NCBI GenBank assembly: GCA_002290555.1
Contig: NEUK01000066.1
Location: 1-43,864 of the forward strand
From: Spartobacteria bacterium AMD-G4
GTDB taxonomy: Bacteria; Verrucomicrobiota; Verrucomicrobiia; Chthoniobacterales; Terrimicrobiaceae
DNA: 43,864 bases
Direction: 5' to 3'
Below the pieces are notes generated by a model. The model was not told where the DNA came from. It saw only the letters and a program-made list of their open reading frames with translations, and made no database searches. Of the stretch, positions 629 to 29,075 are shown one piece after another. The position numbers were made by a program, and so were the translations under genes. How positions within the stretch are numbered: position 1 is the stretch's first letter; each line of letters opens with the position of its first letter.

Positions 629-2323
629 GTGCCCAAGATCCTCGTATCGCCCCAGTGGATGACAACGCTTGGGAAAGTCGCTGTCATTTTCGTGGTCTGC
701 TTTTGGATTTACTCGCCCGTTTACCATGGCGAGTGGCTCTGGGACGATGACTACCTCCTGACAAACAACCCAGTCGTTCAGTCACCCGACGGGCTCGGCA
801 GCTTGTGGTTCGCGCCGGCGACGGCGGATTACCTGCCGCTGACGATGAGCGCGCTCTGGCTGCAGTGGCGCTTTTTTGGGCTGGATTCCACGGGTTACCA
901 CATTGTTTCAATCATCCTGCATGCGCTGGCTTCCTGCCTGCTTTGGGGACTGTTGCGGCAAATGCACATCCGCGCCGCCTGGCTCGCGGGGCTGCTCTTT
1001 GCGGTGCACCCGCTGTGTGTGGAATCCGTGGCGTGGATTTCGGAATTGAAAAACACCCTGTCGCTCCCGCTTTTTCTGGCGGCGGCCTGGTGCATCGTGC
1101 GATTCGAACAAGGATCTGGGCGTCGGTTTTATCTTGCGGCCATGGGATTTTTCCTTGCAGCGATGCTGGGTAAAAGTTCTGCCGTCATGTTTCCTTGTGT
1201 GATGCTTCTGCATACCTGGTGGCTGAGAGGTCGCGTCGGCTGGCGCGATATCCTGCACAGCACCCCGTTTTTTCTCATTTCGCTTTTGCTCGGGTTGATC
1301 ACGCTGCACTTCCAGCTGAGCCGCGCCATTGGCGGCGAGCCGATTCCGATCGGCGGTTTCGACTCACGCCTCGCGATTGCCGGGATGGCTGTGCTTTTTT
1401 ACCTCGCCAAGATTTTCTGGCCTCTCACGCTCCTTCCGATCTACCCCCAATGGAAAGCGAATCCGCCAGAGGCCTATCAATTCCTCCCATGGCTGCTGAT
1501 CCTTGCAGCACTCGCTTTTTTCTGGATTCATCGAAAAACCTGGGGTCGGCATGCCCTGATGGCCTTGGGATTTTATTTGATCACCATCCTACCCGTCCTG
1601 GGCTTCGTCTCGATGTCCTACATGCGTGTGGGCTGGGTGGCGGATCATTTCCTCTACATCCCGATGATTGGGATCATCGCGGGGATCGCTGCGGCAACTG
1701 GTGAAGTCTTCCGGCGAACGGGCAATTCCGGCAAACAAATCCTCTTCAGCGTGGCCACGATTGCGGTGGGCGGCCTCACGCTATTGAGCCACAACTATGC
1801 CGCCGTGTGGGACAACGAGGATAAACTTTGGAGCTACACGCTCCTGCACAACTGGGACTGCTGGCAGGCGCACAACCGACTTGGCGCAAGAGAATTCAAT
1901 CGAGGAAAAATCGATGTTGCACTCCCTCATTTTCGCGAAGCGGTGCGACTCCGCCCCGACCTGGCGGAAACCCGTAACAACCTCGGTTCCGGAGTGCTGG
2001 CAACCCAGGACACAAAGACAGCTATCGTCGAGTTTCGCGAAGCTTTGCGCTTGTCTCCAAGCATTGTCGCTATCCAAGCCAACCTCGCCCGCGCGCTTTG
2101 GCTTGATGACCAATTCCCAGAGGCAACAGACCTTTACGCGGACTTGGTCCGGAGGTTTCCTGAAAATCCGAATTTCCTTTGCAATCTTGGTGTTGGTTAT
2201 TTTCAGACCGGTCGCAAGCAGGAGGCTGTGGAGTGCTTCGAGAAGGCGCTGCAGATCGCTCCCGATCTTCAAGATGCCCGCAGAAACCTTGAGACTGTGC
2301 GCGAGGCCCTATTGAAAAACTAA
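629..2323 (+). CDS. TMTC-like polytopic membrane glycosyltransferase with C-terminal TPRs
   Basis: About ten hydrophobic segments (residues 15-420) are followed by roughly four tetratricopeptide repeats (about 430-560). The first luminal/periplasmic loop carries WLWDDDYLL (residues 37-44), the acidic loop expected in GT-C transferases that use polyprenyl-phosphate sugars. The combination of GT-C-like membrane part and TPR tail matches the eukaryotic TMTC/O-mannosyltransferase plan and its bacterial relatives. The likely role is transfer of a sugar to a protein or envelope acceptor outside the membrane; donor and acceptor cannot be read. I chose GTG at 629 because GGGAG lies nine bases before it. 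The frame is open back to an ATG at 545, and another ATG lies at 659. The 3' end overlaps the convergent gene by 15 bases. Confidence 0.75.
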   Translation: MPKILVSPQWMTTLGKVAVIFVVCFWIYSPVYHGEWLWDDDYLLTNNPVVQSPDGLGSLWFAPATADYLPLTMSALWLQWRFFGLDSTGYHIVSIILHALASCLLWGLLRQMHIRAAWLAGLLFAVHPLCVESVAWISELKNTLSLPLFLAAAWCIVRFEQGSGRRFYLAAMGFFLAAMLGKSSAVMFPCVMLLHTWWLRGRVGWRDILHSTPFFLISLLLGLITLHFQLSRAIGGEPIPIGGFDSRLAIAGMAVLFYLAKIFWPLTLLPIYPQWKANPPEAYQFLPWLLILAALAFFWIHRKTWGRHALMALGFYLITILPVLGFVSMSYMRVGWVADHFLYIPMIGIIAGIAAATGEVFRRTGNSGKQILFSVATIAVGGLTLLSHNYAAVWDNEDKLWSYTLLHNWDCWQAHNRLGAREFNRGKIDVALPHFREAVRLRPDLAETRNNLGSGVLATQDTKTAIVEFREALRLSPSIVAIQANLARALWLDDQFPEATDLYADLVRRFPENPNFLCNLGVGYFQTGRKQEAVECFEKALQIAPDLQDARRNLETVREALLKN

Positions 2324-2998
2324 CTCCTTCACTCTCACGAAGCGAGGTTCTTCAAAAGAAGCGACTCTTGCAACGAAGCCCGGCCATTCCATGCGATGTA
2401 AATGGACGCGCCTGCCATCCAGTTCCCCTTCGAACTCACTCCAAACAAGCGCCCTCTCAAGACCGCCAGAAATCCCTGATCCTTCGAGTTTTAAAATCGC
2501 CTCCTTGGCCGTCCACAAATCCACAAAAAGTGACGCGGCATGCTCTCCCGCCGCAGCAATTTGTGCGGCTTCCGCACCCGAAAAAAACCGCCGAGCGATA
2601 GAAACAAAGTCCGCACGACGCTCTTTTTTTTCGACATCAAAGCCAATGGGCGTGCGAGAAAAAGCGATGGCCACCTCTTTTCCAGAGTGGCTTAAGCTGA
2701 AATGTAAATCGGGATGATTGACCAAAAAGGGCTTGCCCTCGGGATGCGTCTCAATACATTTTTCTTCGGAAGGTTTTCGCGTATATTTTGCTATAAGACT
2801 GCGTATTGCACATCTTGAGAGTATAAATGCTTCACTCGTATCTTGACCGGAAATAGCCTTAAGTTTTGCCTTTTCGTCTTGGCTTAAGAGGCTGACATCA
2901 GGCATTCCCCTCACCCGCCATACTTCAATCATCCCAAGCTCAAGCATGTTGGGCTTATTTTTAATGATTTCTTCCTGCCTATTTTTTTCTTGCAGCAA
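2309..2998 (-). CDS. 4'-phosphopantetheinyl transferase (Sfp/AcpT superfamily)
   Basis: This 229-residue protein carries the three Sfp-family signatures in order: HFSLSHSG after a GKPFL lead (substrate/CoA binding), IGFDVEKKER (metal-binding Asp and Glu) and WTAKEAILKLEGSG (the W-x-x-KEA catalytic motif). It should move the phosphopantetheine arm of CoA to an acyl or peptidyl carrier protein. Length fits the family. No carrier-protein or synthase gene is nearby, so the partner is unknown; it could be the primary fatty-acid ACP enzyme or serve a secondary pathway. The TTG start at 2998 has AAGGA seven bases upstream; an ATG at 2947 is the alternative. The 5' half is visibly more AT-rich than neighbouring genes. 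It is divergent from the gene at 3028 and converges, overlapping by 15 bases, with the glycosyltransferase. Confidence 0.85.
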   Translation of the reverse strand: MLQEKNRQEEIIKNKPNMLELGMIEVWRVRGMPDVSLLSQDEKAKLKAISGQDTSEAFILSRCAIRSLIAKYTRKPSEEKCIETHPEGKPFLVNHPDLHFSLSHSGKEVAIAFSRTPIGFDVEKKERRADFVSIARRFFSGAEAAQIAAAGEHAASLFVDLWTAKEAILKLEGSGISGGLERALVWSEFEGELDGRRVHLHRMEWPGFVARVASFEEPRFVRVKELVFQ

Positions 2999-3027
2999 AG
3001 TTGATTCCTTGTTTATTTAAGTGCCTA

Positions 3028-3441
3028 ATGAAAGTAACAGATATCAATACCCAGACCTTGACGGCACTTCTTTCCCTTACCAAGAAAAAAGAGAGCCTGC
3101 AGGCCAAAATCGCTGAAGTCGAAAAAGACATCGCAGCTTTAGCCTCGGGCGAGATTCTTGCCGCAACCCGTCTGATCCGTGCCAAATCCATCAAGAAGCG
3201 CCGAGGAATCGCCAAAGGTCCGAAAAAGCCACGCTCCGCCAAGGGCTTCATGCAAGAAGAGATCATCAAACTCCTCTCAGCCGCCGGTGAAATCGGCCTC
3301 AGCGTGAGGGAACTGGCTGAAAAAATGGAAAAGCCTGCGGGTCAGGTTCATGTTTGGTTCAGCAATACCGGCAAAAAGCTGGGACTGTTTGAAAAAATCG
3401 ACACGGGAAAGTGGAGGAAACTCTCCAACCCAGCCCAGTAA
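3028..3441 (+). CDS. Small coiled-coil / basic linker / winged-helix protein (putative DNA-binding)
   Basis: I do not recognise a named family. The 137 residues divide into a heptad-like N-terminal helix (about 8-40), a strongly basic linker (52-73, with KKRR and KKPR clusters) and a C-terminal region with winged-helix character (74-132). In that region EEIIKLL and LSVRELAEKM look like helices, GQVHVWFSNTGKKLG like the recognition helix and turn, and LFEKIDTGKWRKL like the wing. The plan (oligomerising helix, basic tether, DNA-binding end) resembles nucleoid-associated or silencer proteins; that is inference. ATG 3028 was chosen over an upstream TTG at 3001 because it removes a non-helical leader. 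No clear Shine-Dalgarno is present. A perfect terminator follows directly. Confidence 0.7.
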   Translation: MKVTDINTQTLTALLSLTKKKESLQAKIAEVEKDIAALASGEILAATRLIRAKSIKKRRGIAKGPKKPRSAKGFMQEEIIKLLSAAGEIGLSVRELAEKMEKPAGQVHVWFSNTGKKLGLFEKIDTGKWRKLSNPAQ

Positions 3442-3458
3442 GAATCCATCCGACCTTC

Positions 3459-3498
3459 AAAAGGCGTTTCACAGCATTTGTGAAACGCCTTTTTTTTT
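3459..3498 (+). terminator. Intrinsic terminator after the winged-helix gene
   Basis: A perfect 15-bp stem (arms 3459-3473 and 3479-3493, arm sequence AAAAGGCGTTTCACA) with a five-base GCATT loop ends in a run of T to 3498. It lies 17 bases after the stop of the plus-strand gene. Read on the minus strand it also forms a stem ending in TTTT, so it may work in both directions between this gene and avtA. Confidence 0.92.
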
Positions 3499-3516
3499 AC
3501 CCGCCTCATCCGCACA

Positions 3517-4773
3517 TCAAAAAGCGGAGGCGACCTCCTCACCGATGATTTTGAGACCGGCACGCACATCCGCGTCGCTCATGGCAAATGAAATACGAAG
3601 GCATTCCTGGCGGTGGCGCCAATCCTCATCAGGCAGGCCAAAAAAGAAATAATCACCAGGCACAACGAGGACCCCACGATTCTTGAGCGTTTCGTAGATC
3701 TCGCGCGATGTCTTTTTGGCTCCGTCGAGCCAGAGCCAAAGAAAGAGGGCGCCCTCGCTTTCATGGAGGGCATAGGGAGCGTCCGCAGGAAAAAATTCTG
3801 CAATCGCCTCGAGCGCAGCATCTCGTTTTTTCAGATAAAAGGGACGGATGATATCGCGACTGAGGCGAACAATTTCGCCGCTGGCAATGAGAGGACCCAC
3901 GATCGCCTGGCCGAAATTCCCATTGGCGAGGCCCGTCACAGCCATCATGGAAGAAACGGCGGCGGCCACCTCCGGAGAAGCCACCACGAACGCCGTGCGC
4001 GTGCCGGGGAGGCCGAACTTCGACAGACTCATCACATGAACGGTCTGCGCTGTCCAAAGCGGCTTCGCCTCCCCGAAAACAAGACCGGGAAAGGGCCATC
4101 CATAGGCATTGTCGATAATGAGCGGGATATTGCGCTGTGCGGCGATGTCGGCCAGGTGCCCGAGCTCGGCATCCGAGATGAGATTCCCGCTGGGATTCGT
4201 GGGTCTGGAGACACACAGGGCAGCGATGTCGGAGCCTGGGTGGAGATTTTTAAAATCCACATGGTATTTGAAGCGGTGCGAACCAGTGCGGGAGATGCCG
4301 GGCTGGACTCCGGCGAACATTCCCGGCTCAAGCGACTGGTTCGCATACCCGATGTATTCCGGCATGAGCGGGAAGAGAATGCGGCCGAGGGACCCATCAC
4401 CACGGCGGCCCCCGAAAAGATTGAAGAGGAAATAGAAGGCGGTCTGTCCCCCGGGTGTCACAGCAATATTCTCTGGGCCGACGGGCCAACTAAATTCCCT
4501 ACGGAGCAAAGCGGCGAGGCTCTCCAGCACCGCCGCATTGCCACGGGGCGGATCGTAAATCGCCAGCGTGCGGCGCAATATGGAGGGATCGCCCACGATT
4601 TTTTCCATGCGCTCTTTCCAGACGGCCTCCATCTCCGGGATGTGTGCGGGATTTCCCCCACCCAGCATGAGGGGTGCTGGACCGACTCCTGAAAGCGCCT
4701 TGCCCAGGTCATCCATGAGACTCTCGATGCCGCTGCCGCCCGAGAGATTCTGGCCGAGTGATGAAAATTCCAT
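3517..4773 (-). CDS. avtA: Valine-pyruvate aminotransferase AvtA
   Basis: PLP-dependent fold-type I aminotransferase, 418 residues from ATG 4773, matching the length of E. coli AvtA (417). Diagnostic segments are MLGGGNPAHIPEME near the N-terminus, the YDPPRG motif, FPLMPEYIGYA, FKYHVDF, CVSRPTNPSGN, the PLP-ring Asp/Tyr in IDNAYG (about 221-224), the Schiff-base Lys in SLSKFGLPG (about 252) and GALFLWLWL. The enzyme interconverts valine plus pyruvate with 2-oxoisovalerate plus alanine in the cytoplasm, linking alanine and branched-chain amino-acid pools. The start at 4773 gives MEFSSLGQNLSGGSG, aligning with the E. coli N-terminus; a longer frame to 4812 is less likely. It is transcribed away from thiH. 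Confidence 0.92.
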   Translation of the reverse strand: MEFSSLGQNLSGGSGIESLMDDLGKALSGVGPAPLMLGGGNPAHIPEMEAVWKERMEKIVGDPSILRRTLAIYDPPRGNAAVLESLAALLRREFSWPVGPENIAVTPGGQTAFYFLFNLFGGRRGDGSLGRILFPLMPEYIGYANQSLEPGMFAGVQPGISRTGSHRFKYHVDFKNLHPGSDIAALCVSRPTNPSGNLISDAELGHLADIAAQRNIPLIIDNAYGWPFPGLVFGEAKPLWTAQTVHVMSLSKFGLPGTRTAFVVASPEVAAAVSSMMAVTGLANGNFGQAIVGPLIASGEIVRLSRDIIRPFYLKKRDAALEAIAEFFPADAPYALHESEGALFLWLWLDGAKKTSREIYETLKNRGVLVVPGDYFFFGLPDEDWRHRQECLRISFAMSDADVRAGLKIIGEEVASAF

Positions 4774-4930
4774 GCGCGTCAGGATGCGTGATGATCGCCC
4801 GTGGTTCAACACCTCGCTTGGCGATCCGAGTCCAAGCCGCGAAAGGTCGTTGCCATTTCCGACCGAAACTCGCCGCTTGCGGCGCGGGATGTTTCATTGG
4901 TTAATGCGCGTATCAGCGCATAGTCATCGT

Positions 4931-6046
4931 ATGGGTTTTTCCAATTTTTTCCAACAAGCCATCACTCGAAAATCAGCCTCACTGCGCGCATTCGAGTCAC
5001 TGCTCGCCCCCATGAGCGACGCTGCGCTGGAATCCCTCGCCGCTCGCTCCACGGCTGTGACGCGCAGGCATTTCGGCCGCACGATGAGACTCTTCGCGCC
5101 GCTCTACCTCTCCAACGAGTGCATCAACTCCTGCGCCTACTGCGGATTCTCGCGCGAGAATGCCATCCAGCGCGTGACTCTCGAAATCGAGCAGGTCGCC
5201 GCCGAGGCGCGCCACCTCTCGGCGGAAGGCTTCCGCAACATTCTTCTCGTGGCAGGCGAGCATCCCAAGTTTGTTTCGGGCCCCTATCTGGAAATGTGCG
5301 TCGCCCACCTGCGTCCCCATGTTCCCGCGCTCTCGATCGAGGTCGCGCCAATGGAGACCGCAGACTATCTGCCCATCGTTCGTGCCGGCGCGGAAGGATT
5401 GGTGGTTTATCAGGAGACCTACCATCGCGAGACCTACTCGCAGGTCCACCTTGCGGGGCCAAAAAAGGATTTTGACTGGAGGCTGGATTGCCCCGAGCGC
5501 GGATACGAAGCCGGGTTCCGACGCTTGGGAATTGGCGCGCTTTTCGGCCTCGCCGATTGGCGCTACGAGGCTGTGGCGCTCGCCGCCCATCTGGAATATC
5601 TCCAGCGCGTGTGCTGGAAGGCACAGATCACAGTCAGCATGCCCCGTCTGCGACCCGCAGCCGGGGAGTTTGAGCCCGGGCATCCCCTCGCCGACCGTGA
5701 ATTCATTCAGCTCCTGTGCGCCCTGCGCGTTTCCTTCCCGGCCATTGGCATTATCCTGAGCACGCGCGAGCCTGCGGCCTTGAGGGATGTCCTCGCTCCC
5801 CTTGGTGTCACCATGATGAGTGCCGGCAGCCACACCGAGCCGGGCGGATACACCGGCCAGGGCCGGGAAGCTCTCCACCTGACGGTCAAAGGTAAAATCG
5901 TGCCCGATTCTGGAGCGGAAGCTGCCACGGAACAATTTTCGATCTCGGATGATCGCGATGCACGCACCGTCGAATCCGCCCTTCATCGCATGGGGCTCGA
6001 ACCCGTTTGGAAGGATTGGGACGAGGCCATTCTCTGCGCGGTATGA
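4931..6046 (+). CDS. thiH: 2-iminoacetate synthase ThiH (tyrosine lyase)
   Basis: Radical SAM enzyme of 371 residues. The CINSCAYC motif (Cys64, Cys68, Cys71; CX3CX2C) binds the [4Fe-4S] cluster and SAM. Other ThiH features are LLVAGEHPK, VYQETYHRETY, DFDWRLDCPERG, GIGALFGL, ISTVSMPRLRP-like SMPRLRPAAG and SAGSHTEPGGY. It cleaves tyrosine to 2-iminoacetate (dehydroglycine) and p-cresol for anaerobic-type thiamin thiazole synthesis. ATG 4931 gives the usual ThiH length; the frame stays open upstream across avtA, which I ignore. The stop overlaps the thiS start (ATGA). No TPP riboswitch consensus was seen in the 157-base gap to avtA. Confidence 0.93.
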   Translation: MGFSNFFQQAITRKSASLRAFESLLAPMSDAALESLAARSTAVTRRHFGRTMRLFAPLYLSNECINSCAYCGFSRENAIQRVTLEIEQVAAEARHLSAEGFRNILLVAGEHPKFVSGPYLEMCVAHLRPHVPALSIEVAPMETADYLPIVRAGAEGLVVYQETYHRETYSQVHLAGPKKDFDWRLDCPERGYEAGFRRLGIGALFGLADWRYEAVALAAHLEYLQRVCWKAQITVSMPRLRPAAGEFEPGHPLADREFIQLLCALRVSFPAIGIILSTREPAALRDVLAPLGVTMMSAGSHTEPGGYTGQGREALHLTVKGKIVPDSGAEAATEQFSISDDRDARTVESALHRMGLEPVWKDWDEAILCAV

Positions 6047-6243
6047 ACATCTCCCTCAATGGCGAGGCCCGCGGCATCGAAGGTCAAAAATCTCTCAGCG
6101 ACCTTGTAGCGGAGCTTGGACTCGAGCCGAGAATGATCCTCATCGAACACAACGGGTGCGCCCTCCACCGCAGCGAGTGGTTGGAGCGGGGACTGGCCGA
6201 GGGTGACCGCATTGAGATTCTTCAAGTTGCCGCCGGAGGATGA
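6043..6243 (+). CDS. thiS: Sulfur carrier protein ThiS
   Basis: This 66-residue protein has a ubiquitin-like fold pattern (MNISLNGEAR, LSDLVAELGL, IEHNG, LAEGDRIEILQVAAGG) and ends in Gly-Gly, the tail that is adenylated by ThiF and converted to a thiocarboxylate to supply sulfur to the thiazole ring. The ATG at 6043 overlaps the thiH stop by four bases. ThiG and ThiF are not in the window; the next gene converges 16 bases downstream. Confidence 0.93.
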   Translation: MNISLNGEARGIEGQKSLSDLVAELGLEPRMILIEHNGCALHRSEWLERGLAEGDRIEILQVAAGG

Positions 6244-6259
6244 GGCGAATCCCACGGGA

Positions 6260-7557
6260 TCACTCGTAGCGGAGCGCGGTGATGGGATCGATGTTCGAGG
6301 CCTTGGCAGCAGGATAGAGCCCGGAGAACAAACCGGCAAAGAGAGCAAAACCCACAGCCAAAAGAATGGCATCGGCACTGAGAACAGGGACATTTTCCGT
6401 GGGTGAGATGGCTTTGAGAATTTCGATCAAACCTAACGACGCAAAAATACCCAGTAGGCTCCCGAGGAAGGAAACGAGGATGCTCTCGATGAGAATCTGC
6501 CAGAAAATATCCCTCTGGCGCGCCCCGACTGCGAGGCGAATACCGATCTCGCGGACACGCTCGGAGATGCTTGCGAGCATGATATTCATGATGCCGATGC
6601 CGCCTACGAGCAGGCTGATGGCGGAAATGAGAGCTCCACTCAGACGGGTTGCCCGGACACTGGCTTCGATGCGGTCGAACCAATCCTGGCGCGTTTCCAG
6701 GTCGAAGTCGTCAACCCCACGATGGGTGGTATTCAGTATGGAGCGGACTTCATCGAGGGCGGGGCGAAAGAAATCCAAATCCCCCACCCTTATCGTCAGC
6801 GTCTCAAGCTTTATGGTTTCAAGCGAGTCGAGAGGAAAAGCGCCGGAGCGAAACTCGTAAAACATCGTTGTAAACGGAATCAGAACCGTTTCATTTTTTT
6901 GGCGAAAAGGATCCCAACGGCGCGAGAAAGATTTGCCAGACTTTCGAGCACGAGCATGAGACTCCATCTGGTAGAGGGACAGGATACCGACGACCGTGAA
7001 TGGACTGGAATCAATGAGGATTGTGTTGCCAATAGCCTTTTCTGGCGTGGTATTCGGCCAAAGATATCTGGCCACCGAATCGCCCACGACAGCGCAGCGC
7101 GTGCCCCTTTCGATGTCCAGTGGGGTCAGGTATCGCCCTGCGGCCAGTTCGTGCATGCCAATGACGAAATGGTCCGGGTAGATTCCTCTTATCGAGTAGC
7201 GCTCGGGGTTGCCCCCGCCATCGGTGGCGACCGCGGTCGAGAAAGAAATCTCTGGGGAAACATGGGAGATAAAGTTGGCCGAGCGGCGGATGGCTTCGGC
7301 GTCGAGGAGCGTGCGCCCGGGTGAGAGGTTGGCAAAATCGAAGTCGGAACTTGAGGGCTCTCTACTGACGACTGAAACAGATTCCAGCCCCCCCATTTGC
7401 TGCATGAATTTGCGACTTCCTTCTTCAATGCCTCCCGTGAGGGCCATTGTGGCGACGAGACTGCTTACACCAAGGACGATGCCAAGCATCGAGAGGGCGG
7501 TGCGAAATTTGTGGGCTGAGATTTCACGCAGCCCAATCGAAATAGCGATGAAGAGAT

Positions 7558-21506: not shown

Positions 21507-22295
21507 ATGCCAATTATTGGTTTTTTTTTGAATTTATACCGAGATTTCCTGACATTTTTGGGTCAGGTCGCGATGTTGGCGGGTGAAACAATCCTCTCGA
21601 TCGTCTGCGGTCGTATTCGACTGAAGCTGGTCATCCAGCAGATTGCGGAGATTGGATTCCGCTCCCAACTGGTGGTTATTGTCACCGGAGGTTTCACGGG
21701 TGCGGTCTTCACGGCGCAGGCCTATTTTCAGTTTGCGACCCTGAACATGGAAACGGCAGTCGGCCCTGTGGTCGCAGTCTCGATGTTCCGCGAACTCGGT
21801 CCGGTGCTGGCGGGCCTGATGGTTGCGGGACGGGTGGGTGCCGCCATGAGCGCGGAGATCGGCACCATGCGAGTCACGCAGCAGATCGACGCGCTGCGCG
21901 CCTTGGCAGTGAACCCGGTCGACTACCTTGTGGTGCCCCGTGCCTTGGCGATGTTTGTTTCCATGCCATTTCTGGTAGTCGAGTGCGTGGGCTGCGGGAT
22001 CATTTCCAGCTATTATGTGGGGGTAAATGTTCTGAATATTTCGGGCGTTTACTTCCTCGCCAACACTCAGAAATTCGCTGATTCCAGTGATATCGTCATG
22101 GCCTTGGTGAAGGGATTTTTCTTCGCAGGCGTCATTGTTTTCATCAGCTGCCGAGAGGGGTTGAACGCCAAGGACGGAGCGGTGGGAGTGGGACGCGCCA
22201 CGACAAGCACCGTTGTCAATTGCTCGCTGGCCATCCTTGTCGCAAACTTCTTTCTCACCATGGCCCTGAATATCCTGTTCCCTGCCGGCCAATGA
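21507..22295 (+). CDS. mlaE: MlaE-type phospholipid ABC transporter permease
   Basis: A 262-residue permease of the MlaE/YrbE family with five to six helices. Family marks are FTGAVFTAQAYFQF, GPVLAGLMVAGRVGAAMSAEIGTMRVTQQIDALRALAVNPVDYLVVPR (the GTM-x-x-x-Q-IDAL coupling helix) and VGVGRATTSTVVNCSLAILVANFFLT. It forms the inner-membrane part of an MCE lipid transporter. The stop overlaps the mlaF start (ATGA). Confidence 0.93.
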   Translation: MPIIGFFLNLYRDFLTFLGQVAMLAGETILSIVCGRIRLKLVIQQIAEIGFRSQLVVIVTGGFTGAVFTAQAYFQFATLNMETAVGPVVAVSMFRELGPVLAGLMVAGRVGAAMSAEIGTMRVTQQIDALRALAVNPVDYLVVPRALAMFVSMPFLVVECVGCGIISSYYVGVNVLNISGVYFLANTQKFADSSDIVMALVKGFFFAGVIVFISCREGLNAKDGAVGVGRATTSTVVNCSLAILVANFFLTMALNILFPAGQ

Positions 22296-23047
22296 TGAAT
22301 GCTCCACTCATCCAAGTCCGAAATCTGGTTCAAAAAATCGGAACTCAGGAAATCCTCAAGGGCCTGACATTGGACATCCACAAAGGCGAAACGCTTGTCT
22401 TGCTGGGAAAGAGCGGCGGAGGGAAAAGCGTGTTTTTGCGGCACCTGATCGGCCTCATGCGTCCTGTTTCGGGAAGTATTTTATTCGAGGGCCAGGAGAT
22501 TACAAAACTCAAGGAACGCGAACTCGAACCGATTCGCAGAAAGATCGGCATGCTTTTTCAAGATGGGGCGCTCTTCGACTCGATGAATGTTTTCGATAAT
22601 GTCGCATTTCCCGTGCGCGAGCGCGGCGAACGAAATCCAGTCGTGATCCGCAGGAAGGTTGAGGAATCACTGGCCATGGTCAATATGGGCGGACACGACA
22701 AAAAAATGCCGGTCAACCTGAGCGGAGGCATGCGCAAGCGGGTCGCTCTCGCAAGGGCGATCATCTCACCGCCGGCTGTCATCCTCTACGACGAGCCCAC
22801 AGCAGGGTTGGACCCCATCGTCTCCGACAGCATCAACAAACTCATCCGCCGTCTGCAGGCCGAGCTACATGTCACATCGATCGTCGTGACCCACGACATG
22901 GTGAGCTGCAACCACATCGGCGACCGGGTGGCTCTGCTGAGCGAAGGACGCATCTATTTCACGGGAAATACAGAAGACCTTCGCACAGCCACAGACCCGG
23001 TGGTCCGAGATTTTGTGGATGGCAGGTCGGGAGAAACCATTTATTGA
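22292..23047 (+). CDS. mlaF: MlaF-type phospholipid ABC transporter ATPase
   Basis: A 251-residue ATPase. Walker A is GKSGGGKS (39-46), the Q-loop is in MLFQDGALFDSMNVFDNVAFPV, the signature is LSGGMRKRVALARAI (the LSGGM form typical of MlaF), Walker B is ILYDEPTAGLDP and the H-loop is VTHD. It energises lipid movement between the inner and outer membrane. Two consecutive ATG codons (22292 and 22295) follow the mlaE stop; the first overlaps it. Confidence 0.94.
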   Translation: MMNAPLIQVRNLVQKIGTQEILKGLTLDIHKGETLVLLGKSGGGKSVFLRHLIGLMRPVSGSILFEGQEITKLKERELEPIRRKIGMLFQDGALFDSMNVFDNVAFPVRERGERNPVVIRRKVEESLAMVNMGGHDKKMPVNLSGGMRKRVALARAIISPPAVILYDEPTAGLDPIVSDSINKLIRRLQAELHVTSIVVTHDMVSCNHIGDRVALLSEGRIYFTGNTEDLRTATDPVVRDFVDGRSGETIY

Positions 23048-23057
23048 GGAGACAAGC

Positions 23058-23927
23058 ATGAGCAGCGAAGACAAAGGCACACAAATCAAAGTAGGTCTAT
23101 TCATCCTGATCGGTCTCTTGACCGTGGGAATGATGGTCATTTATTTCGGAAGGCTCGGGGAGGGATTCTCGAGCTACTACAATGTCAAGGTGGAGTTCAC
23201 TAATGCCAGCGGGCTTCTGAGAGGTTCTGAGATCTTGCTGGCGGGAGCCAAGGTAGGGCGCATCACGAACGAGCCAGTTATTCTTCCGGACATGCGAGGC
23301 GTCTATGTGGATGTCCGCATTTTGGATCAGGTCAAGATACCTGTCGGGAGCAAATTTTCCATCGGTAGCTCCGGCCTCCTCGGCGATAAATACATCGAAA
23401 TTTCGCTCGATGGAGCAGGGGCAGAAAAAGGATTCATCAAAGCCGGTGATGTTCTCAAGGGCAGTGAAAGCGGCGGCGGCATCGCCGGCATGGCGGAAGG
23501 CGCTGGAGCATTGATCGGCGACCTCCGGACCACTGTGGGAAACATCAACGCCGTGGTGAAAAAGCTCGACTCGACCATTCTTTCCAAAGACGAGCTGGCC
23601 TCGATTTCCGCAACGATGAAAAATCTTGAAACCGCCACTGGGCGAATCGCCGATGCGTCCAAGCAATTTGACACCACCATGGCGAGCGGAAAAGCGACGA
23701 TGGACTCAGCCAAAAAAGCAGCCGACGAGCTTCAGCAAACCCTTTCTGCGATTCACAAGCTCGTCGACCAAGCCAAATCGGGAAGTGGCGTGCTCGGCAC
23801 TCTCATCAGCAACCGCGAAATGGCAAACAACCTTCGCGCCCTTGTGTTGAACCTCCGGAAGCATGGGATTCTTTGGTATAAAGACACAAACGCACCTGCC
23901 CCGGCTGGCGATAAAGTGGAGCCTTGA
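23058..23927 (+). CDS. mlaD: MlaD-type MCE-domain lipid-binding protein
   Basis: A 289-residue protein with one N-terminal membrane anchor (about 10-30), an MCE domain (about 38-115: YYNVKVEFTNASGLLRGSEILLAGAKVGRI and the GSSGLLGDKYIEI motif) and a helical C-terminal region (about 150-260) ending in a Pro/Ala-rich tail. It is longer than E. coli MlaD (about 183 residues), the extra length being the C-terminal helices. ATG 23058 has GAGGAG seven bases upstream. No mlaB or mlaC follows; the next gene is metabolic. Confidence 0.92.
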   Translation: MSSEDKGTQIKVGLFILIGLLTVGMMVIYFGRLGEGFSSYYNVKVEFTNASGLLRGSEILLAGAKVGRITNEPVILPDMRGVYVDVRILDQVKIPVGSKFSIGSSGLLGDKYIEISLDGAGAEKGFIKAGDVLKGSESGGGIAGMAEGAGALIGDLRTTVGNINAVVKKLDSTILSKDELASISATMKNLETATGRIADASKQFDTTMASGKATMDSAKKAADELQQTLSAIHKLVDQAKSGSGVLGTLISNREMANNLRALVLNLRKHGILWYKDTNAPAPAGDKVEP

Positions 23928-23994: not shown

Positions 23995-25719
23995 ATGAGC
24001 CAGAAACAGAAGCGAGCCGTTTTATTCATCTGCACGGGGAATGTCTGTCGAAGCCCGATGGCAGAGGCATTGTTTCGCAAAATGTCCTCAGGGTGGGATG
24101 ATCTGCATGTCTTCTCAGCGGGCTTGAGCGCACCACAGGGGGCACCCGCCAGCCGCGATGCGGTGGATGTCCTTGCCGAACAGGGGGTGGACCTCTCGAA
24201 ATTCCGCAGCCAACCGCTCACCGAAGACCTGCTTGTAAAGGCATCCCACATTTTTGTTATGACCCGCGAACACGAGCGCTTGGTGGACATGTTTTACCCC
24301 GAATACATGCACAAGGTCCGCCTGCTCCGCTTCGACGAAAAGGGGGCTCCAGATGTGCCAGACCCGATTGGCCAAGGCCGCGCGGTCTACGCCGAGTGTA
24401 AACTCAGCATCGAGCGGGCCCTGCCATCCGTATTACGAATGATCAACCAAAAATCCATGACGACAACCGAAGAATCCCCAACAGGTCTTTCCGCACTCGC
24501 TGAAACCGATCCCGAAATAGCGGCAGCCATCGACAAGGAATACAAGCGTCAATTTGAGCACATCGAGCTCATCGCTTCTGAAAATTTCACCAGCAGATCC
24601 GTCATGGAAGCACAGGGCTCCTGTCTGACCAACAAGTATGCGGAGGGCTACCCAGGCCGCCGCTGGTATGGCGGCTGTGAATATGTGGACATCGTGGAAA
24701 CACTTGCCATCGATCGTGCGAAGAAACTCTTCGGAGCTCAGCACGCCAATGTGCAGCCCCACAGCGGCAGCCAAGCAAATATGGCCGTCTATTTCAGCGT
24801 TCTGACGCCCGGCGACAAGATTCTCACCATGGATCTGGCCCACGGTGGCCACCTCACCCACGGCCACAAAGCCAACTTTTCGGGCAAATTCTACGAGGTG
24901 CACCACTACGGCGTGAATCGGGAGACCGAGCTGATCGACTATGACGCCCTCGCCCGCCAAGCCGAGGAGGTGCGTCCCAAAATGATCACCGCAGGCGCGT
25001 CGGCCTACCCCCGCATTATCGATTTCCAGCGCATGCGCGAAATCGCCGATGCTGTGGGAGCCTACCTTTTCGTGGACATGGCCCATATCTCGGGACTCGT
25101 CGCAGGCGGCGCTCACCCTTCGCCATTTCCTGTTGCGGACTTTGTCACGACAACCACTCATAAAAGCCTGCGCGGCCCGCGCGCTGGTCTTGTCATGTGC
25201 AAGGAGGAATTTGCCAAGAAAATCGACGCCCAAGTGTTTCCAGGCGTCCAAGGCGGTCCACTCATGCAAGTCATCGCTGCAAAAGCGGTTTGTTTCAAAG
25301 AGGCCCTGCAACCCGACTTCCAAGTCTATGCTCGCCAGGTCGTGAACAATGCAAAATCCCTCGCAGCCAGGCTCTCGAAACTTGGCCATCGCATTGTCTC
25401 GGGAGGCACGGACAACCACGTCCTCCTCGTTGACCTTCGCCCGGCGGGACTCACTGGCGCAGAAGCCTCCCTCGTTCTCGATAAGGCGGCCATCACGGTG
25501 AATAAAAATGCGATTCCGTTCGACACCGAGTCGATCATGAAAACAGGCGGCATTCGCATCGGCACTCCCGCCATGACGACCCGTGGACTCCGCGAGGACG
25601 ACATGATGCAGGTGGCCGACTTCATTCACACAGCACTCGACGCACGGAACGACGACCATCGCCTTGCCGCTCTCCGCCGCGAGGTGACGGCTTTCACGGC
25701 GCGTTTTCCGCTACCCTGA
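23995..25719 (+). CDS. glyA: Fusion: low-molecular-weight protein phosphatase + serine hydroxymethyltransferase (GlyA)
   Basis: A 574-residue single frame. Residues 1-148 form a complete LMW phosphatase: active loop CTGNVCRS (Cys13 to Arg19, CX5R) and the general-acid Asp in VPDPIGQG near 120. Residues 155-574 form a full-length [69 protein letters not shown] and the PLP lysine Lys390 in [18 protein letters not shown] converts serine and tetrahydrofolate to glycine and 5,10-methylene-THF. The loop position that is Thr in the arginine phosphatase YwlE is Val17 here, so phosphotyrosine-like specificity is at least as likely. Internal ATGs at 24439 (codon 149) and 24457 (codon 155) lie exactly at the junction, so a separate SHMT could also be made. 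Convergent with aroK, 11 bases away. Confidence 0.93.
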
Positions 25720-25730
25720 GCCCTCTCCCT

Positions 25731-26258
25731 TTAGGATCGCTGGGCCTGTATGCGCATCGCTTGATCGAGCACCTTGCGTGCGGCTTCCTCTTGTTCGACC
25801 TCGCTCGAGTCAAAGCGGAAGTCGGCGATGGCTTCATAGGCAGACCTCCGCGATGAGAGGAGTTGGTCGAAGGTTTCGCGCGGGTTCGGCGTTTGCAGGA
25901 GCGGACGCTTGCCGCTGCGAATGGCCCGCTCAAAGAGAACGTCCGGTGAGGAATCGAGCCACACAATAATCCCAATTTTTTTGAGAGCCGCACGATTGGC
26001 CTCACGCAGAATAGCTCCCCCTCCGCTGGAGAGAACCATACCGGCGACACCCACCAGATCCGCCAACACCCGCTGTTCGATGTCGCGAAACCCCTCCTCG
26101 CCGCATTTGGCAAAGATTTCCGGGATACTCCGCCCCTCGGCCTTGGCCACCAACTCATCCGAGTCGACGAAGCGATGTCCCGTGAGACTGGAAAGCCTTC
26201 GCCCGACACTTGATTTCCCGCAGCCCATGAACCCGATGAGAACAAAATTTGGCAACAT
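25731..26258 (-). CDS. aroK: Shikimate kinase
   Basis: A 175-residue P-loop kinase. Walker A is GFMGCGKSS (9-17); the shikimate-binding residues are Asp34 (VDSDELV), Arg58 (GFRDIE) and the Gly triplet 79-81 (SSGGGA); the lid contains RSGKRPLL; and SRRSAYEAIADF carries the C-terminal adenine/shikimate arginine. It phosphorylates shikimate at O3 in the chorismate pathway. No other aro gene is in the window. Divergent from the M24 peptidase across 85 bases. Confidence 0.94.
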   Translation of the reverse strand: MLPNFVLIGFMGCGKSSVGRRLSSLTGHRFVDSDELVAKAEGRSIPEIFAKCGEEGFRDIEQRVLADLVGVAGMVLSSGGGAILREANRAALKKIGIIVWLDSSPDVLFERAIRSGKRPLLQTPNPRETFDQLLSSRRSAYEAIADFRFDSSEVEQEEAARKVLDQAMRIQAQRS

Positions 26259-26343
26259 GGAGCGATTCTCTCACAGCCTTGCGGCGGCTGAAATCATTTT
26301 GACTCCCGCTGGCATTTCCCGAAGCGGTCGCTATGGTGGAGCC

Positions 26344-27465
26344 ATGTCGCGACCCAAGCTCATTTTCGGCTCTCCCGAGACCTGCGCGGATTTGCTTTAC
26401 GCCACGCATTTCCGCGCGCCAGATGCCTTCGCCTATCTTGAGGTCGAAGGGAAGAAACACATTCTCCTGAACGATCTGGAGGTCGATCGCGGACGCGCCG
26501 AAGCCAAGGTGGATGTCGTGGATTCCTACTCGGAGTTCGAAGCCACAGCCCGCAAATCCTCCGATAAAAAGCCTTCCCAAGCCAAAGTCATGGCAACTTG
26601 GATTCTTTCCAAGGGGGTCAGCGAACTGAGGGTTCCACACGACTTTCCACTCGGCCTCGCGCGTGATCTTAAAAAGGAGAGTCTCGATCTGAGGCCTGTG
26701 CGCGAATCTTTTCACCCGGAGAGGGAATTAAAGTCCCGACAAGAGGTCCAATTGATCGAAAAAGCTGTAGGCATCGCCGAGGCGGGCATGGCGCGAGGCC
26801 TTGAAGTCCTGCGTGCCGCACGCATCCTCAAGGATGGCAGCCTCTCATTCAATGGGCAGCCGCTGAGTTCCGAACTCCTCCGCATCGAAATGGAGATCGC
26901 CGTGCTGCGCCATGGCGGCGAAGCCCGTGGCGATACGATTGTCGCTTGTGGCGAGCAAGCTTGTGATCCCCACTCGCGCGGCTCGGGCCCGCTTTTTGCA
27001 AATCAGCTCATCATCCTCGACATCTTCCCGCGCGATGCACGCACGGGGTGGTTTGGCGACATCACGCGCACTGTCGTTCGCGGCCGCGCCACAGACGCCC
27101 AGCGGCACCTTTGGGAAACCTGCCTCGCGGGTCAAAAACTGGCCCACGACGCCATGAGGCCCGGAACTGAGGGCCGAATCATCCACAACATGGTCAAAAA
27201 CCACTTTGCGACTCAGGGATACCCTACCGAAATCAAAAATGGACGCTGGCAGGGTTTTTTCCACGGCACCGGCCACGGGCTGGGCTTGGAGATTCACGAG
27301 TCACCTCGATTTTCCGACACCGTCTTCCTTCCAGGCCAGGTCATCACAGTCGAGCCTGGCATCTACATTCCCGGGCTCGGTGGGGTGCGCCACGAGGATG
27401 TCGCCCTTGTCACAAAATCCGGCGTTCGCTTCCTCACGCAGTTCCCAAAACCTTTCGAAATATGA
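26344..27465 (+). CDS. M24-family metallopeptidase (Xaa-Pro aminopeptidase-like)
   Basis: A 373-residue protein with a creatinase-like N-terminal domain (1-130) and a pita-bread peptidase domain (131-373). All five metal ligands can be placed: Asp226 (LDIFP), Asp239 (GDITRTV), His311 (GTGHGLGLEIHE), Glu337 (VEPGIY) and Glu351 (RHEDV). His210 in DPHSRG is the usual substrate-side histidine. It probably removes N-terminal residues before proline from cytoplasmic peptides; a different dipeptide specificity is possible. ATG 26344 has GGTGGAG close upstream; the open frame before it crosses aroK antisense. The stop overlaps prfC (ATGA). Confidence 0.88.
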   Translation: MSRPKLIFGSPETCADLLYATHFRAPDAFAYLEVEGKKHILLNDLEVDRGRAEAKVDVVDSYSEFEATARKSSDKKPSQAKVMATWILSKGVSELRVPHDFPLGLARDLKKESLDLRPVRESFHPERELKSRQEVQLIEKAVGIAEAGMARGLEVLRAARILKDGSLSFNGQPLSSELLRIEMEIAVLRHGGEARGDTIVACGEQACDPHSRGSGPLFANQLIILDIFPRDARTGWFGDITRTVVRGRATDAQRHLWETCLAGQKLAHDAMRPGTEGRIIHNMVKNHFATQGYPTEIKNGRWQGFFHGTGHGLGLEIHESPRFSDTVFLPGQVITVEPGIYIPGLGGVRHEDVALVTKSGVRFLTQFPKPFEI

Positions 27466-29075
27466 CCACCGCAGAGCGCGAAATCGCGCGCCGGCGAACC
27501 TTCGCCATCATCTCGCATCCCGATGCGGGCAAGACCACACTCACCGAAAAATTCCTCCTCTACGGCGGTGCCGTGCAACTCGCCGGCAGCGTGACCTCCC
27601 GCAAAAACGCGCGCGCCACCACCAGCGACTGGATGGAACTCGAAAAACAACGCGGCATCTCGGTGTCATCCACCGTCCTGCAATTCGACTACCGCGACTG
27701 CGTGGTGAACCTCCTCGACACCCCCGGCCACAAGGATTTCTCGGAGGATACCTACCGTGTGCTCACAGCGGTGGATGCAGCCGTGATGGTCATCGACGCC
27801 GGCAAAGGCATCGAATCCCAGACGCGCAAACTTTTTGAGGTCTGTCGCAAACGGGGGGTCCCGATTTTCACTTTTATGAACAAGCTCGACCGGCCGGCGC
27901 GTCCGCCTTTGGAGCTGCTCGACGAATTGGAATCGGTCCTTGGCATCCACGCCCTGCCCATGAACTGGCCACTGGGCGACGGCCCCGAGTTTCGAGGCGT
28001 GTTTGACCGCAAGGAGAAGTGCGTGCATCTCTTTGAAAAAACTCCCGCTGGTGCCTATCGGGCCCCGGTGTCCGTGGCAGGCATTCAGGATGAAGCCGTC
28101 CGCGCGGCGCTCGCGCCGGATGTCCATGCGAAGGTCTGCGAGGAACTCGACCTATTGGATGGGGCGGGAACGGATTTCGACTTCGAAGCCGTGCGTGCTG
28201 GCGAGGCCACACCCGTCTTCTTCGGCAGTGCGGCCAACAACTTTGGTGTCCAACTCCTGCTCGACAACTTCCTCCAACTCGCCCCCCCGCCCGCGCCGAG
28301 ACTCAGTTCCAGCCAATTGGTGGATCCACACAACGAAGCGTTCTCCGGCTTTGTTTTTAAAATCCAGGCCAATATGAACCCCAAGCACCGAGACCGCGTT
28401 TCCTTCATACGCGTCGTTTCGGGATGCTTCCGCCGCGATATGGTCGCCACCCACTCACGCTTGGGAAAGACCATCCGCCTCGGCAATTCCCAGCGCCTCT
28501 TTGCGCAGGACCGCGAGACAGTGGATGAAGCCTGGGCGGGTGATGTCGTAGGTATCGTGGGGAATTACGATTTTCTCATCGGCGACACGGTGTCGGAGGA
28601 TCCCTCCGTCGCCTACCATGAGATTCCGCGCTTTGCGCCCGAGTGTTTCGCCTACTTGCGCAACTCGAGTACGGCCAAATTCAAACGCTTCCGCGAGGGA
28701 CTCGACCAACTGCTCAAGGAAGGCGTGGCGCAGCAATTCGAACTTCCTGATGCCATCCAGCGAGTGCCGCTTCTTGGAGCTGTGGGCCCTTTGCAGTTTG
28801 AAGTCATGCAATATCGGCTCGAGACTGAATACAGCGCCGACTGCCGTGTGGAGTCGGCTCCATGGCAGTTCGCCCGCTGGCCACTGCAAGAGGGATGCCC
28901 CCTCACCTCGAGGCCCGAGTTGCTCACGCCTTCGGGTTGCACGCTTGCACAAGACGCCTCCGGCTTTTGGGTTGTTCTGCTGCCAAGCAGCTGGACAATT
29001 GGGTATCTGGAGGAGAAAAACTCGGCTTTCACATTTTCGCCTGAGCCGCCCCCACCCTCGAAGCCGGACGCCTGA
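27462..29075 (+). CDS. prfC: Peptide chain release factor 3
   Basis: A 537-residue translational GTPase. G1 is SHPDAGKTT (18-26), the switch 1 region is RGISVSST, G3 is DTPGHKDF and G4 is NKLDRPARPP. RF3-specific parts follow: MNWPLGDGPEFRGVFDR, FGSAANNFGVQLLLDNF, and the C-terminal domain with VGPLQFEVMQYRLETEY. It recycles RF1/RF2 from the ribosome after termination. Length is close to E. coli RF3 (529). The start overlaps the peptidase stop by four bases and the TauE gene begins three bases after its stop. Confidence 0.95.
   Translation: MTTAEREIARRRTFAIISHPDAGKTTLTEKFLLYGGAVQLAGSVTSRKNARATTSDWMELEKQRGISVSSTVLQFDYRDCVVNLLDTPGHKDFSEDTYRVLTAVDAAVMVIDAGKGIESQTRKLFEVCRKRGVPIFTFMNKLDRPARPPLELLDELESVLGIHALPMNWPLGDGPEFRGVFDRKEKCVHLFEKTPAGAYRAPVSVAGIQDEAVRAALAPDVHAKVCEELDLLDGAGTDFDFEAVRAGEATPVFFGSAANNFGVQLLLDNFLQLAPPPAPRLSSSQLVDPHNEAFSGFVFKIQANMNPKHRDRVSFIRVVSGCFRRDMVATHSRLGKTIRLGNSQRLFAQDRETVDEAWAGDVVGIVGNYDFLIGDTVSEDPSVAYHEIPRFAPECFAYLRNSSTAKFKRFREGLDQLLKEGVAQQFELPDAIQRVPLLGAVGPLQFEVMQYRLETEYSADCRVESAPWQFARWPLQEGCPLTSRPELLTPSGCTLAQDASGFWVVLLPSSWTIGYLEEKNSAFTFSPEPPPPSKPDA

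Follow-up and report, generated by a model that had tools for sequence, protein, structure and literature searches.

A conserved phosphatase-serine hydroxymethyltransferase fusion in Verrucomicrobiota with a predicted link to McsB and a candidate internal translation start

Why do a low-molecular-weight protein phosphatase (LMWP) and a serine hydroxymethyltransferase (SHMT) share one polypeptide? The question is raised by a gene in a 43,864-nucleotide stretch of DNA from Spartobacteria bacterium AMD-G4 (contig NEUK01000066.1), which was analysed at its full length and is called the window here. The original prediction, made from the letters of the DNA, held that both enzymes are complete in a single frame, and this was borne out: the frame encodes 574 amino acids and runs without a stop through both Pfam domains (Table 1).

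Table 1. Positions in the window of the LMWP-SHMT fusion gene and of its domains, motifs and candidate start.
Feature	Position	Strand	Basis or remark
LMWP-SHMT fusion gene	23995..25719	+	574 aa plus stop, ATG start, uninterrupted frame
Low-molecular-weight protein phosphatase domain (residues 9-144)	24019..24426	+	Pfam PF01451 (LMWPc), E 2e-27
P-loop CTGNVCRS (residues 13-20) with nucleophile C13, R19 and specificity position V17	24031..24054	+	Alignment
Asp-Pro general acid of the phosphatase, D123-P124	24361..24366	+	45/45 aligned LMWPs
Linker, residues 145-167, weakly conserved except Met155	24427..24495	+	Identity to relatives and column counts
ATG155, candidate internal translation start giving a free SHMT of 420 aa	24457..24459	+	Sequence signature
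51-nt stretch (-30 to +21) flanking ATG155	24427..24477	+	Folding scan and synonymous-codon test
SHMT catalytic domain (residues 168-544)	24496..25626	+	Pfam PF00464, E 8e-174
SHMT lysine K390 in TTTTHK	25162..25164	+	Motif aligned to 1kkj

The N-terminal part belongs to the LMWPc family, as it has both the P-loop C(X)5R(S/T) (C13 to R19-S20) and the Asp-Pro acid loop (D123-P124). The C-terminal part is an SHMT by its full PF00464 domain and its subfamily score (637 bits against NCBIfam PRK00011, cut-off 335), and glycine-serine interconversion is predicted for it. We take K390 of the TTTTHK motif to be the PLP lysine. By sequence, the closest solved structures are 4egs (8e-24) and YwlE (1zgg/4kk3, 2e-20) for the phosphatase part and 1kkj (E 9e-168) for the SHMT part. 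The window protein shares the whole catalytic domain and the TTTTHK motif with GlyA of the 1kkj type, which lacks the roughly 150 phosphatase residues at the N-terminus. A structure prediction from five near-identical sequences gave a mean pLDDT of 49.8, too low for use. Both halves are under purifying selection, with dN/dS values of 0.08-0.23 for the LMWP part (13 pairs with finite dS) and 0.04-0.07 for the SHMT part (15 pairs), many dS values being near saturation. The range for the LMWP part indicates that it is translated and used. The gene thus almost certainly encodes a functional, conserved LMWP-SHMT fusion for which both enzyme activities are predicted. It is the only match to the protein in its genome bin (1.8 Mb, 74 contigs, 82% complete), and the nearest named records come from Spartobacteria and Verrucomicrobia metagenome bins.

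Within the order, 57 of 58 genomes searched (the window's included) matched the fusion protein. LMWP and SHMT lie in one frame without internal stop in 49 of these 57, a count that includes two genes cut by contig ends (G002 and G014, the former judged from the match alone). Seven further genomes encode LMWP-RpiB-SHMT, and one (G049) has LMWP and SHMT as adjacent genes. An assembly or sequencing artefact, that is, a stop or frameshift missed near 24440-24460, is ruled out for all practical purposes, since the same open frame recurs in the 49 genomes, which by their record titles stem from several projects.

To place the fusion in the phylum Verrucomicrobiota, we sampled 288 genomes (the window's included), 287 of which matched some part of the fusion protein. 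SHMT loci were selected by score and then for family coverage, and their domains were labelled with purpose-built HMMs; 211 loci were reduced to 204 by dropping L059-L063 (same-genus named records) as well as L064 and L065 (without SHMT). In this analyst-chosen sample of mostly draft bins, whose genus representatives are not independent, the 204 SHMT loci comprise 96 RpiB-SHMT fusions, 49 LMWP-SHMT fusions with the architecture of the window, 37 unfused SHMTs and 22 LMWP-RpiB-SHMT triples. A separate LMWP gene lies inside the fetched stretch at 53 of the 96 RpiB-SHMT loci. A Pfam cross-check found RpiB in five of six scanned proteins, the sixth being an LMWP-SHMT. The window protein itself has no LacAB_rpiB match in Pfam and hence is not a triple fusion of the Minf_1669 type described below. 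On an SHMT tree built with a quick method (202 rows, the distant SHMTs L210 and L211 omitted), the four architecture labels require at least 19 changes, compared with a mean of 92.8 after shuffling, and the LMWP-SHMT clade of the window is nested in a group of 64 rows that also contains 12 triples. The two omitted loci belong to family f42, where a distant SHMT type replaces the usual one and matches the query only piecewise. A contig scan with the phosphatase half returned seven loci: five are Verrucomicrobial fusions (one of them cut), and the other two are Proteobacterial proteins with no SHMT match within about 3 kb on either side.

These fusion variants across the phylum rule out a recent one-off fusion. 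The original prediction had also proposed that the fusion may preserve an old gene neighbourhood; we take ywlE to lie near glyA in the Bacillus gene order. As relatives elsewhere in the phylum show LMWP-RpiB-SHMT in a single frame or an LMWP gene adjoining RpiB-SHMT, an old neighbourhood of the ywlE-rpiB-glyA kind is strongly suggested.

The triple architecture has been in print since 2008, when Minf_1669 of Methylacidiphilum infernorum was described as a combination of LMW phosphatase, RpiB and SHMT, for which the authors proposed a link between the serine pathway and the pentose phosphate pathway (Hou et al., 2008, PMC2474590). Like the window gene, Minf_1669 joins an LMW phosphatase and an SHMT in one polypeptide of a member of the Verrucomicrobia; it differs by its RpiB domain. 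The passages of PMC2474590 on this gene mention neither McsB nor an internal start, and they are the only description of a phosphatase-SHMT fusion that we found in the open-licence PMC literature. The best PDB sequence match to the phosphatase domain of the window, 4egs, bears the title Ribose 5-phosphate isomerase RpiB. Its chain has 180 residues, of which 35-165 are aligned, and includes no SHMT; the title suggests that the source organism has a phosphatase-RpiB fusion.

How did the window's lineage come to lack the RpiB domain? Its genome carries a separate RpiB gene (L219:1985-2473), and 17 of 19 fetched separate RpiBs of the order form one clade (SH-aLRT 99) in a tree of 119 columns, with stars on just 10 of its 85 inner branches. 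Because this clade includes copies from G027 and G046, two genomes that bear triples, the fused domain probably became dispensable once a second rpiB was there, as far as a 119-column tree can suggest. The idea that the separate rpiB is the released fused domain is unsupported, the separate RpiBs being a clade of their own in this few-column tree. RpiA as a replacement was likewise rejected: it occurs in six of the 58 genomes of the order and not in the window's genome. The fused RpiBs of families f16 and f19 sit on a branch of their own, where two of four have very long ends; the HMM scores of fused RpiBs fall to 59 bits in L042 and 67 bits in L093, most others lying at 118-172. In the same 119-column tree, the f16/f19 domains look as if they were decaying in place. 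The f16/f19 loci concerned are L042, L048, L052, L093 and L102; in L102 the frame breaks inside the domain.

We then asked which phosphatase the N-terminal half represents. The P-loop was found in all 145 labelled LMWPs of the phylum, and its C, N, C, R and S as well as the Asp-Pro pair are invariant in an alignment of 45 LMWPs; a general-acid role of this Asp-Pro is described in a passage of PMC8001253. YwlE of Bacillus subtilis and PtpB of Staphylococcus aureus share with the window domain the fold family, the P-loop C(X)5RS and the catalytic Asp-Pro, and the mcsA-mcsB-clpC-like run in the window's genome resembles their setting. In contrast to both, the window phosphatase is fused to SHMT and has a Val where they have Thr (P-loop position 5), and its activity on arginine is a prediction. 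According to a passage of PMC8001253 that relays Fuhrmann et al. (2013) on YwlE, Thr at this position goes with phosphoarginine and Ile with phosphotyrosine. The window protein lacks the Thr of the YwlE/PtpB type (Val17), and the 145 LMWPs are mixed (Ile 56, Thr 45, Val 37, Ser 7), so that the rule leaves the specificity unsettled.

In the window's genome, McsA-like, McsB and ClpC-like genes stand in a row (L218, G000:C32:9500-16500, at 2300-6389), as they do in Gram-positive bacteria. The McsB scores 413 bits against a cut-off of 385 for PRK01059.1-4 but does not reach the cut-off of any of four further arginine-kinase models; the McsA-like gene scores 141 bits, under its cut-off of 210. Of the 58 genomes of the order, 55 have a PF00217 match; for the phylum the count is 274 of 288, with many weak matches. 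Among the fusion-bearing genomes, no match was found in G006 (97% complete) or in the less complete G002 and G005. A control search with PF00217 gave no match in 14 control genomes, among them Bacillus subtilis, which we expected to have McsB.

With thresholds chosen after the values were seen (McsB: PF00217 E up to 3e-50; LMWP: YwlE-like profile A1 E up to 1e-30), and with weak matches, possibly fragments or paralogues, counted as below threshold, 207 of the 288 genomes have both proteins and 61 neither, while 13 have McsB only (G110, G155, G171, G182, G188, G254, G276, G285, G300, G301, G323, G326, G335) and seven LMWP only (G185, G195, G215, G225, G246, G263, G315). Fisher's exact test gives p 3e-41 but ignores kinship. 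A tree-aware co-loss test on the SHMT tree (154 rows) is borderline: its eight starred independent pairs hold about five concordant and no contrary ones (median p 0.0625), and when the direction is reversed, one contrary pair appears in a few pairings. Within one genus (g29), 11 of 22 genomes have both, 10 neither and one McsB only. Since the phosphatase tracks McsB, and since the fused copy is the sole LMWP-profile match in the window's genome, we consider it somewhat probable that it is a YwlE-like protein-arginine phosphatase opposing McsB, as YwlE does according to a passage of PMC9112008. The tracking of McsB by this phosphatase seems to be new, with the reservation of the borderline tree-aware test. 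Methylacidiphilum has McsB/Clp homologues (Minf_0242, Minf_0241), so that McsB is already in print as a stress-induced gene of a member of the Verrucomicrobia (PMC8024496); the passages of that paper on these genes draw no link to the phosphatase-SHMT fusion. The main text of PMC12283558, on essential genes of Verrucomicrobium spinosum, mentions neither glyA nor McsB.

A fused gene need not yield fused protein only. The original prediction had named two in-frame ATGs, at codons 149 and 155, as possible starts of a free SHMT. Codon 149 was discarded, with Met in only seven of 25 family rows, while codon 155 held up by its conservation and its unstructured context. The linker is 35-78% identical to that of 16 relatives, compared with 82-95% for the SHMT part, and yet column 155 is Met in 21 of 25 family rows, the other four having their Met one or two residues later. 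Met occurs in the SHMT-start zone of 47 of 49 LMWP-SHMT fusions, but in only 14 of 70 RpiB-SHMT fusions (26 rows lacking the landmark pattern were left uncounted) and 10 of 22 triples. Counted by genus, the ratio is 21/21 for LMWP-SHMT against 12/54 for RpiB-SHMT. In a narrower zone from -8 to -18, taking all rows, the numbers are 45/49, 20/96 and 8/22, and two of the 21 LMWP-SHMT genera are without Met. The exceptions in the wider zone are L031 and L032, from the 0.9-Mb genomes G031 and G040.

The bases around the internal ATGs are also unusual. In 21 genera, the 20 bases upstream contain 14% G, compared with 28% when other in-frame positions of these genes are taken; the folding energy of 51 bases averages -3.3 kcal/mol, compared with -12.7 at those positions. 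Unfused SHMTs (34 of them) have similar values at their inferred starts (10% G, -4.3 kcal/mol). When codons were redrawn synonymously from the usage of each gene, which controls for the amino acids, the internal ATG showed less structure than the redrawn sequences (mean z +1.69, 21 genera, p 2e-6) and was poorer in G (z -1.94), whereas 126 control positions gave -0.16 and +0.17, respectively. No such bias was found at the equivalent site of 77 RpiB-SHMT genera (z +0.09, p 0.44) or of 20 triple genera (z 0.00, p 0.84). The window gene has a z of 2.47, and no 51-base windows of its whole frame are less structured than those on codons 155-157. Depending on the window used, the site reaches the 90th percentile of its own gene or more in 16 to 19 of the 21 genera; L073 (z -0.42) and L082 (+0.65) are weak cases. 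No Shine-Dalgarno (SD) sequence was found at ATG155, and the internal ATGs generally bind the anti-SD more weakly than control positions do (mean -0.39 kcal/mol, n=47, compared with -2.57, n=940). The 34 unfused SHMT starts bind likewise weakly (+0.22 kcal/mol), and an SD of -4 kcal/mol or lower occurs at 4% of internal and 6% of unfused starts. This agrees with a passage of PMC10783764, in which some Verrucomicrobia are described as SD-scarce.

ATG155 is a conserved in-frame ATG in an initiation-like context, and this signature makes its use as an internal start likely. Such a conserved start in LMWP-SHMT genes would seem to be new. A comparable arrangement is cas8b/Cas11b, in which one frame gives a long and a short product from an internal Met; there, the start is reported from experiments (PMC11899642), whereas for the window gene it is read from a sequence signature.

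These findings have to be weighed against other explanations. The original prediction had suggested that SHMT is regulated by the phosphatase or that the two share a partner. On this reading the phosphatase would dephosphorylate SHMT itself or some partner in one-carbon metabolism, and the tether would raise the local concentration. Phosphatase and SHMT do share a polypeptide in 71 of the 204 loci and lie within the same fetched neighbourhood in many more. On the other hand, the phosphatase follows McsB whether it is fused to SHMT, next to it or at another place in the genome, including four genomes of family f14 in which it lies away from SHMT (G058, G199, G224, G256), and this pattern suggests a general rather than an SHMT-specific role. 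Furthermore, 61 of 288 genomes are below both thresholds, yet SHMT was matched in nearly all of them (except G062, G159, G310 and G314), and the main text of PMC9112008 mentions neither GlyA nor hydroxymethyltransferase. We found no support for regulation of SHMT by the phosphatase and regard it as improbable. A less remote alternative, though still an unlikely one, is that the N-terminal domain acts on phosphotyrosine or small molecules and that it coincides with McsB owing to genome size, lineage or data quality. The Val or Ile at the specificity position of many members and the borderline tree-aware test would fit this, but the joint presence and absence within the single genus g29 and the retention of LMWP and McsB in 0.9-Mb genomes speak against it, as does the fact that YwlE entries are the closest named relatives whose function has been tested, going by passages of PMC8001253 and PMC9112008.

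Similar doubts could be raised about ATG155. Both the Met and the unstructured, G-poor stretch might come from a flexible linker of Ser, Thr, Pro and Asn or from co-translational folding, in which case only the 62-kDa fusion would be made. The site indeed has no SD, G031 and G040 manage without the Met, and the LMWP-RpiB linkers of the 22 triples lean the same way, albeit more weakly (z +0.74). However, the synonymous-codon test controls for the amino acids, the Met enrichment is specific to the LMWP-SHMT architecture, and the position and context of the site match the inferred starts of unfused SHMTs, which are SD-less, too. We consider a silent ATG155 slightly less probable than the phosphotyrosine or small-molecule alternative.

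The reading that we prefer as a whole is a long-kept fusion in which a YwlE-like eraser is tethered to SHMT, with free SHMT made from ATG155 in addition; we give it a probability of about one half, its activities being predictions. The fusion would derive from a phosphatase-RpiB-SHMT gene cluster that was variously fused across the Verrucomicrobiota. Its SHMT half would be the ordinary glycine/serine one-carbon enzyme of the cell, and its N-terminal half the YwlE counterpart that opposes the arginine kinase McsB. As the phosphatase part lacks a separate stop codon, it would exist only tethered to SHMT, and an SD-less second start at ATG155 would yield free SHMT as well; the phosphatase is thus probably always tethered and the SHMT also made free. 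SHMT could then be abundant and the phosphatase scarcer, mixed SHMT oligomers could form, and the inferred stoichiometry would tie the dose of the eraser to that of a housekeeping enzyme, yet keep it below. More tentatively, and with somewhat less than even confidence, we propose that in this order the eraser occurs only as a rider on SHMT, that chains from the two SD-less starts co-assemble, and that the dose is set by SHMT abundance and start choice. In the same proposal, the triple would have lost its RpiB once a second rpiB was present, and the SHMT start would have persisted or been regained lineage by lineage.

Most work on arginine phosphorylation by McsB concerns Gram-positive bacteria. 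A kinase and a phosphatase that are, for the most part, retained or lost jointly across 288 genomes would extend it to a whole phylum and name a candidate phosphatase for the McsB system, one that is often physically joined to central metabolism. The internal start would show how, in one fusion, a tethered form can coexist with a free one. The small genomes G031 and G040 keep the fusion together with McsB.

A few observations concern the surroundings of the gene. Immediately upstream, the same strand carries genes resembling mlaE, mlaF and mlaD (21507-23927), with 67 bases between the stop of the mlaD-like gene and the ATG of the fusion, and an upstream mlaD match was seen in five of 14 same-genus loci (L002-L005, L014), some of which have short flanks. 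Downstream, a convergent shikimate kinase gene (25731-26258, minus strand) lies 11 bases past the fusion stop and recurs in nine of the 14 loci (L002-L005, L008, L011-L014; again some with short flanks). A 408-amino-acid open frame antisense to the SHMT part (24433-25659, minus strand) is probably a by-product of codon usage. Further downstream, an M24 peptidase frame (25909-27465, plus strand) overlaps an RF3-like gene (27462-29075, plus strand) by four bases.
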